DNA from: Coriobacteriia bacterium
GTDB lineage: Bacteria; Actinomycetota; Coriobacteriia; Coriobacteriales; Atopobiaceae
Length of the DNA stretch: 57,642 bases
NCBI GenBank assembly: GCA_030530145.1
Contig: JAUMVN010000003.1
Location: 128,810-186,451, forward strand
Direction: 5' to 3'
Below are positions 50,889 through 52,149 of this stretch, piece by piece. The notes beneath the pieces are model-generated. The model saw only the letters and a program-made list of their open reading frames with translations, did not search any database and was not told the origin of the DNA. Position 1 is the stretch's first letter. Every line of letters starts with the position of its first letter. The translations under genes and the position numbers were made by a program.

Positions 50889-51006
50889 AGGGCGATACCT
50901 GGGTTGACGTGGGACGATATACGGCCCCGGAGCGCGCCCTCGCCGCGCCCGTCTTGCCGCCGCCCGACTTCGCCGACGGCTTCGACGGGCTTCTTGCCAG
51001 CGTTGC

Positions 51007-51012
51007 TATACT
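51007..51012 (+). promoter_or_regulatory. Possible -10 hexamer for the metA leader transcript
   Basis: TATACT, four to five of six consensus bases, placed so that transcription would start near 51019-51020, about 33 nt before the leader-peptide ATG. No convincing -35 at 17 bp. Confidence 0.45.
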
Positions 51013-51051
51013 GGTTCGCATCTAGTCGCGATTACCCGAGGGGAGAAGCAT

Positions 51052-51105
51052 ATGTGCGCAGCCGCCGCTCTCCCCATGCTGATGCGAATGCGGGGGCACT
51101 GCTGA
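51052..51105 (+). CDS. Methionine-rich leader peptide of metA
   Basis: A 17-codon ORF, MCAAAALPMLMRMRGHC, preceded by a strong GAGGGGAG ribosome site with 6-nt spacing. Four of 17 codons are Met: the start, then 51076-51078, 51082-51084 and 51088-51090, three within five codons. Its stop (TGA, 51103-51105) overlaps the 5' arm of the terminator hairpin that follows. Size, codon content and position match amino-acid attenuator leader peptides. Too short for routine gene calling. Function is inferred, not shown. Confidence 0.7.
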   Translation: MCAAAALPMLMRMRGHC

Positions 51106-51169
51106 GCTCAGCCGCCGGCTGTTGTTCTGAGCAGTGCTTTTATCGTCGTCAGCCAACCCGCATCCGCAT
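51082..51169 (+). promoter_or_regulatory. Candidate attenuator: leader Met codons pair with sequence touching the metA Shine-Dalgarno
   Basis: ATGCGAATGCGGG (51082-51094), which contains the last two Met codons, is complementary at 12 of 13 positions to CCCGCATCCGCAT (51157-51169). The next bases, AGGAGAG, are the metA ribosome site. This stem encloses the terminator hairpin, so the two can coexist as a nested structure. A ribosome paused at the Met codons would break both. Confidence 0.6.
51096..51141 (+). terminator. Intrinsic terminator in the metA leader
   Basis: Perfect 8-bp stem GCACTGCT / AGCAGTGC (51096-51103 with 51130-51137), plus CAG/CTG after a bulge and an inner CAGCC-GCC-GGCTG hairpin, followed by TTTT (51138-51141). 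It lies between the leader peptide and metA. Confidence 0.7.
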
Positions 51170-51183
51170 AGGAGAGCCGAAAC

Positions 51184-52149
51184 ATGCCTATCAACATCCC
51201 CGACGGCCTGCCCGCCAAGGCGACCCTGCACCAGGAGCGCATCTTCGCGCTCGAGGAAGAAGTGGCCAACAACCAGCAGATCCGCCCGCTGCACGTGGTC
51301 ATCCTCAACCTCATGCCGACCAAGGTGGAGACCGAGACGCAGATCCTGCGACTCATATCCAAGTCGCCGCTGCAGGTGAGCTGCGATTTCATGCGCGTGA
51401 GCAGCCATGAGGCCACACACACCTCGGCTGACCACCTGGTCAAGTTCTACGACACGTTCGACGCGCTCAAAGACAACTATTACGACGGCTTCATCGTCAC
51501 CGGCGCGCCGATCGAGCACCTTGAGTTCGAGGACGTCGACTACTGGGACGAGTTCTGCCGCATCGTGGACTGGTCGCAGACCCACGTGCTCTCGACGATG
51601 TACCTGTGCTGGGGCGCGCTCGCGGGGCTCTACCACCTGTATGGCATCCCGAAGAAGATGCTCGGCGCCAAGCTCTTCGGCGTCTTCAAGCAGAAGCTCT
51701 GCGATGAGTACAACTTCCTGACCAACGGGTTCGACGAGGTGCACTACATGCCGCACTCCCGTCACGCCGCCATCGATACGGCGGCGCTCGCTGCCCACCC
51801 TGAGCTGCAGGTCCTTTCCGAGGGCTTCACGAGCGGGCCGGCGCTTATCGCCACGCGGGATTTCCATGAGGTGTACGTGACCGGCCACTTCGAGTACGGG
51901 CGCGACACGCTCGGCTCCGAGTTCTGGCGCGATTTCCACAAGGGGCTGCCCATCCGCGTGCCCGAGAACTACTTCCCCGACGACGACCCCGAGCAGCAGC
52001 CGCTCTTTACCTGGCGCGCGCACGCCAACCTGCTGTATCGCAACTGGCTCAACTGGATCTACCAGATGACGCCCTACGAGCTCGAGCGCATTCCCGAGGT
52101 CATCGAGGAGCTGCGCGGCGGCGGCGACATCATGACGGACAAGTTCTAG
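51184..52149 (+). CDS. metA: Homoserine O-acetyltransferase (MetA family)
   Basis: A 321-residue enzyme activating homoserine for methionine synthesis. MPINIPDGLPAKATLHQERIF, LNLMPTKVETETQILRLI, and MYLCWGALAGLYHLYGI with the catalytic Cys are MetA signatures; HFEYGRDTL holds the conserved His/Glu region. In TGAPIEHLEFEDVDYW the residue after Ile is Glu; in MetA proteins Glu here is linked to acetyl-CoA use and Gly to succinyl-CoA, so acetylation is inferred. Start follows AGGAGAGCCGAAAC. Upstream is a Met-rich leader ORF and terminator; divergent from metNIQ. Confidence 0.96.
   Translation: MPINIPDGLPAKATLHQERIFALEEEVANNQQIRPLHVVILNLMPTKVETETQILRLISKSPLQVSCDFMRVSSHEATHTSADHLVKFYDTFDALKDNYYDGFIVTGAPIEHLEFEDVDYWDEFCRIVDWSQTHVLSTMYLCWGALAGLYHLYGIPKKMLGAKLFGVFKQKLCDEYNFLTNGFDEVHYMPHSRHAAIDTAALAAHPELQVLSEGFTSGPALIATRDFHEVYVTGHFEYGRDTLGSEFWRDFHKGLPIRVPENYFPDDDPEQQPLFTWRAHANLLYRNWLNWIYQMTPYELERIPEVIEELRGGGDIMTDKF

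Follow-up and report, generated by a model that had tools for sequence, protein, structure and literature searches.

The metA gene of the analysed DNA (the window, a stretch of 57,642 nucleotides of contig JAUMVN010000003.1 from a Coriobacteriia bacterium of the family Atopobiaceae) is preceded by a short leader ORF, whose translation and conservation are strongly indicated by comparison with related genomes, and with a probability of roughly two in three metA is subject to ribosome-mediated, methionine-responsive leader-peptide attenuation. The elements of the locus are as follows:

51004-51012, plus strand: extended -10 element, TGCTATACT, read directly
51038-51045, plus strand: Shine-Dalgarno sequence of the leader ORF, GAGGGGAG, from the sequence
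51052-51105, plus strand: leader peptide ORF of 17 codons encoding MCAAAALPMLMRMRGHC and a stop, from the sequence, with equivalent uORFs in 11 Atopobiaceae genera
51082-51094, plus strand: 5' arm of the outer stem (Met-codon segment), ATGCGAATGCGGG, complementary at 12/13 positions to 51157-51169
51085-51090, plus strand: conserved CGA-ATG (Arg-Met) core, kept in 36/37 leaders
51095-51138, plus strand: hairpin with its 5' arm over the ORF stop, from its fold, its spacing and its occurrence at the same place across genera
51138-51143, plus strand: U-tract TTTTAT behind the hairpin, from the sequence
51157-51169, plus strand: 3' arm of the outer stem, CCCGCATCCGCAT, immediately 5' of the metA Shine-Dalgarno sequence, from own-versus-swapped pairing
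51170-51174, plus strand: metA Shine-Dalgarno sequence AGGAG, from the sequence
51184-52149, plus strand: metA, homoserine O-acyltransferase, the regulated gene in the proposal, from an NCBIfam match

The leader ORF with its Shine-Dalgarno sequence and three Met codons (codons 9, 11 and 13), the terminator-like hairpin overlapping the ORF stop (-26.5 kcal/mol, then TTTTAT) and the 12/13 complementarity reaching the metA Shine-Dalgarno sequence had all been described in a sequence-only reading of this DNA, and all are present. The metA product matches the NCBIfam models MetA_acetyl (E 6.8e-130) and MetA_succinyl (E 1.3e-119), both under the curated cut-offs, and metNIQ lies upstream of the metA leader in divergent orientation. 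The sequence-only reading had regarded a transcription start downstream of 51105 as contrary to it; the start is predicted instead, from TGCTATACT, near 51019, 5' of the leader ORF. In the leader-bearing loci where a -10 box was recognised, it stands about 135 to 220 nt before metA (-135 to -220), 5' of the uORF, which suggests that the leader is probably transcribed; in the leaderless genera a TATACT-like -10 box is found at a median of -37 from metA (median of 49). A generic sigma-70 scan, which also demands a -35 hexamer, called no promoter at the leader. It is also worth recording that within 51038-51076 the leader Shine-Dalgarno core GGGGAG can pair, weakly, with CTCCCC (CTCTCCCC) inside the ORF; the segment 51036-51080 folds with -16.8 kcal/mol (z -1.5), and such self-pairing would possibly limit translation of the leader.

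metA was found in 131 of the 140 Atopobiaceae genomes, the kin genomes of the window's family being recorded under the names Olsenella, Atopobium, Thermophilibacter and Tractidigestivibacter. A short, Shine-Dalgarno-led uORF with an in-frame CGA-ATG near its stop lies 5' of metA in 11 genera. A uniform rule finds it in 29 of 80 genomes, where dinucleotide shuffles predict 0.12. The single exception among the 37 leaders compared for the CGA-ATG pair has CGG; CGA is a rare codon, occurring 4 times among the 135 Arg codons of seven window genes. The codon after CGA-ATG is mostly CGN or TGY, and the usual stop is TAG with a C after it. The encoded peptides, exemplified by MSWNRANMAPLTARMRRMR, MCWNGTRIGLTQRMR, MSWNENADLLLPRMR, MRRTPETLAGRMRRCG, MGSFPKTLSYRMQGL, MRPLLHAYRMC and, in the window, MCAAAALPMLMRMRGHC, each ending at its stop codon, share almost nothing between genera beyond Arg-Met. 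The exact sequence CGAATGYGYTAGC occurs 23 times in the 140 genomes, 13 of these occurrences just upstream of metA. Comparison further shows the uORF to be, as judged from its substitutions, under coding selection: in genus g35 synonymous and non-synonymous changes number 316 and 383 in frame, versus 112/527 and 44/598 in the other two frames. That a chance Met-rich ORF merely adjoins an unrelated terminator agrees with the unremarkable fold of the complete 171-nt window leader (z -1.28), and is hardly credible given the excess over expectation and the coding selection, by which comparison has already refuted it.

The richness in Met codons that had drawn attention to the window is not the conserved trait. 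Every counted leader has an internal Met codon close to its end, only some have a run of Met codons, and many have just one internal Met codon; Met-richness was therefore discarded as a conserved feature in favour of the CGA-ATG pair, which is kept instead. The distribution of the leader is patchy. Homologous loci lacking the ORF, which the sequence-only reading had counted against itself, do exist in the sister species G001 and in many genera, and to that extent they speak against it. Yet the absence is better read as loss or replacement than as chance, because the leaderless loci have either a -10 box close to metA or another structured 5'UTR. No convincing CGA-ATG leader was seen in 54 metA upstream regions outside the Atopobiaceae (other Coriobacteriia families, Bifidobacterium, Firmicutes), and in the leader-bearing genomes tested no such uORF precedes metE-like or metNIQ genes.

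Leader peptides also precede metY, the gene for O-acetylhomoserine sulfhydrylase, the next step of the pathway after metA, in many of the same genomes. One type conforms to MKKKHxYNxLIC[LM]GLFM[PR]KPxL., at times shortened to end with GLFMP before the stop, and the other to M[KE]xTxTY....GRQMP before the stop. The MKKKH-type is conserved along its whole length, M1, K2, K3, H5, Y7, N8, L10, I11, C12, G14, L15 and M17 being invariant in 12 leaders, and a profile of it gave significant E-values only at Atopobiaceae metY in a search of 296 Coriobacteriia genomes. Synonymous and non-synonymous changes in the metY leaders of this type number 760 and 397 in frame, versus 230/1085 and 85/1109 in the other frames. 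Two metY-type leaders, L215 and L216, carry CGA-ATG as well. The metY gene of the window genome has no leader, and in the sister species G001 a leader is found on metY and none on metA.

Several other arrangements were observed upstream of the methionine genes. At three metY loci (L296, L300 and L302) one 5' arm, GCCCGAGCTC, has its complement twice further downstream, which would permit two mutually exclusive hairpins in MKKKH-type metY leaders. A palindrome GTTATC-N8/9-GATAAC, probably a transcription-factor operator, lies 5' of metY in several lineages (L217 of the window genome, L275, L278, L279, L269, L274 and others); it is present in none of the MKKKH-type metY leaders and in some of the other type. 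Upstream regions of metE-like genes (L243, L244 and others) contain palindromes of the CTATAG/GATAAC type and no uORF.

The whole-length conservation of the metY peptides, accompanied by synonymous change, speaks for a reading in which the leader chain itself, lying in the exit tunnel, stalls the ribosome near the Met codon. Slow decoding or a metabolite (methionine, SAM or homocysteine) would be the trigger, as for TnaC and SpeFL, and scarcity of Met-tRNA would be secondary. The frequent presence of just one sensing Met codon and the invariance of Arg-Met in the metA leaders agree with nascent-peptide arrest as well. The metA peptides, however, are nearly unshared between genera beyond these two residues, and CGA is kept as a codon and not just as an amino acid, which an effect of the peptide alone fails to explain; arrest of this kind as the principal mechanism is considered rather unlikely.

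The window hairpin (z -3.7) is more stable than any of 200 shuffles, and hairpin and outer stem together reach -43.4 kcal/mol (z -3.3, again 0/200 shuffles); a generic terminator scan calls only the inner 5-bp stem and not the full hairpin. Across the leaders the fold z-score peaks at the uORF stop, at -1.16±0.42 for metA and -2.59±0.53 for metY, the flanking windows being near background, so that comparison shows a predicted hairpin at this place to be conserved in the metA leaders across genera. The metY hairpins begin, with few exceptions, 4-5 nt past the critical Met codon, whereas the stop lies 3-33 nt away. Because this spacing is constant and the distance to the stop varies, the Met codon and not the stop appears to be the geometric reference in metY, and stalling at the stop codon was rejected in that role. 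For a ribosome waiting at the Met codon to open the hairpin, a spacing of 4-5 nt would be required. The metA hairpins are placed more loosely than those of metY, mostly starting 0-8 nt past the Met codon (4 nt in the window).

Regular spacing is also informative with respect to a uORF that acts constitutively, tuning metA translation by re-initiation or shielding the mRNA with no sensing of methionine. uORFs near ribosome sites can act in that way, but a Met codon set at a fixed distance from a hairpin before two methionine genes, within otherwise unrelated sequence, and the lack of such uORFs before the metE-like and metNIQ genes make a purely constitutive function improbable.

The sequence-only reading had proposed intrinsic termination, but a U-tract directly behind the hairpin is present in the window only, no comparable tract being found in other leaders, so intrinsic termination is local to the window genome and was rejected as the family-wide output. 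No antiterminator was seen in the minimum-free-energy and centroid folds, in which outer stem and hairpin coexist, nested one within the other. In most relatives attenuation might instead depend on Rho, in a tna-like manner: the stalled ribosome would mask an unstructured, C-rich stretch past the hairpin, Rho would terminate transcription after its release, and the U-tract terminator of the window would be a local substitute. The relatives lack a U-tract directly behind the hairpin, the 30 nt after the stop are less structured than shuffles (+0.69±0.16), and this stretch is C-rich and G-poor in many leaders (e.g., C 0.52, G 0.18), all of which fits Rho-dependent termination. The excess of C over G is missing, though, in g19, g27 and part of g25, and rut sites are unprovable from sequence, so a role of Rho in most relatives is put forward as a tentative alternative that we would sooner doubt than adopt.

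The outer stem joins the sensing-codon segment to the ribosome-site region of metA; it abuts the Shine-Dalgarno sequence and does not cover it. On its own the window pairing is modestly above chance (p 0.03, from shuffles of the pre-Shine-Dalgarno region). Over 29 leaders the complementarity between the CGA-ATG segment and the pre-Shine-Dalgarno region exceeds that of shuffles (mean z -1.10), and in a sliding control it peaks at CGAATG, the genus-averaged z being only -0.63±0.35. Each segment pairs better with its own partner than with swapped ones (permutation p=0.0003); with one leader per group the median p was near 0 (10-90% range 0-0.02), the 12 groups of this test corresponding to 11 genera, since Tractidigestivibacter (gc) and g34 are apparently one genus. 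The stem is clear in the window, in g24 (an 11-bp match in L199), g22, g25, Tractidigestivibacter (L019) and some of g35; it is weak or absent in g19, g5, g27 and part of g35. The pairing proposed in the sequence-only reading is thus upheld by the preference for the own partner, but it is detectable only in a subset of genera.

According to the proposed mechanism, transcription would begin near 51019 and a ribosome would translate the 17-codon leader. Under a shortage of charged Met-tRNA this ribosome would pause with ATG 51088-51090, the predicted sensing codon, in the A site and the rare CGA before it, covering the outer stem's 5' arm and the foot of the hairpin, which begins 4 nt further on; with both the hairpin/terminator and the outer stem blocked, metA would be transcribed and translated. 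When methionine is ample, the ribosome would finish and leave, the hairpin would form and, in the window, the U-tract would end transcription, while the outer stem would close against the metA ribosome site. In relatives lacking the U-tract the hairpin would more likely affect translation of metA, whether or not Rho takes part. Methionine supply is the likely signal; the pause at the Met codon, the lowering of expression by the hairpin and the sharing of control between termination and translation are predictions from sequence. What is sensed may be Met-tRNA or the nascent peptide, the metY peptides favouring some role of the chain. Conservation, coding selection, spacing and the swap test point the same way for the attenuation model, several of these tests sharing data, genus g35 contributing about 16 of the compared leaders and many loci being metagenome-assembled. 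Of the model as first drawn, the translated leader, a Met codon as the likely sensing position, the structure behind it and the outer stem are retained, and Met-richness and a family-wide terminator are given up.

A single internal Met codon, as found in many relatives, is weak for a classical sensor of tRNA starvation, and starvation for methionine would also slow initiation on the leader uORF itself. CGA is generally decoded by inosine wobble, and on that ground its invariant presence before AUG may make decoding slower or less stable there. Speculatively, an Atopobiaceae-wide methionine regulon can be envisaged, in which a P-site CGA sensitises the decoding of a single AUG to Met-tRNA supply in the metA leaders and a conserved nascent chain of 17 residues (MKKKHxYNxLICxGLFM) does so in those of metY. 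If this held, one Met codon would suffice as a sensor although methionine is the initiator too; the CGA-AUG pair, together with the conserved metY peptide, points to a way in which one codon might acquire enough sensitivity.

Leader-peptide attenuators have been described for many amino acids, as in the trp, his, leu, thr and phe leaders, with which the metA system shares a short translated leader ORF, codons for the product of the pathway, a hairpin behind them and, in the window, a U-tract terminator. It differs from them in having methionine as its amino acid, in often having one sensing codon, placed after a rare CGA, in showing no antiterminator, in the lack of conservation of its terminator and in the nested stem that reaches the metA ribosome site. 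Arrest-peptide leaders are represented by TnaC, SpeFL and ErmCL; common to them and to the methionine leaders, those of metY above all, are a conserved short peptide, a possible C-terminal stall and a downstream structure, whereas the stall in the Met leaders is a prediction and the metA peptides are unconserved beyond Arg-Met. In other bacteria the methionine pathway is controlled by SAM riboswitches and Met T-boxes. Rfam gave no match at the window leader at gathering score and nothing relevant at E<=1 for 18 leader loci, the SAM riboswitch and T-box models remaining unmatched.

Like the metA leader, the LEU element of actinobacterial leuA has regulatory leader codons that base-pair with the region of its structural gene's ribosome site; it also contains a leucine run and a pseudoknot, and changing its Leu codons was reported to leave regulation unaffected (PMC1262725). 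The metA leader, unlike it, uses Met, has its hairpin at the stop and places the stem just 5' of the Shine-Dalgarno sequence. Cys leader peptides of Mycobacterium, Propionibacterium and Bifidobacterium, with a Cys run near the uORF stop, have been suggested to involve Rho (PMC1262725). They too serve sulfur amino-acid genes, with the sensing codons near the uORF stop and no conserved intrinsic terminator, but the metA and metY leaders use Met, and their conserved hairpin keeps a defined spacing to the sensing codon. In a survey of Actinobacteria from 2005 no conserved RNA element was seen upstream of methionine operons (PMC1262725). Our literature search, in which subscription journals were thinly covered, so that a prior description is possible, found no earlier methionine leader peptide, in line with the sequence-only reading, which knew of no description for metA in this class. 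A leader-type methionine sensor would be of interest as one that must work although the starvation it reports also hits initiation.

In the sister species G001 (L211) and in genus g28 (L140 and L141) a conserved, structured 5'UTR stands about 90 nt before metA in place of the leader. Its layout is GCCGGCGG-NAGACCGACC-GGCGC...GGTCTCATTTGCC...AGAAAGG, and its loop AGACC can pair with GGTCT; in G001 GGACC faces GGTCC, a compensatory change consistent with a pseudoknot-like arrangement. No relevant Rfam match was obtained at E<=5, and the element is a candidate for an unlisted metA riboswitch. When 296 Coriobacteriia genomes were searched by pattern, it was located at metA in G001 and G059, with one further match in G162. 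Among the other metA loci, that of G053:C1 shows extra partial matches, one of them with a stop, and that of G057:C1 is split into two adjacent pieces.
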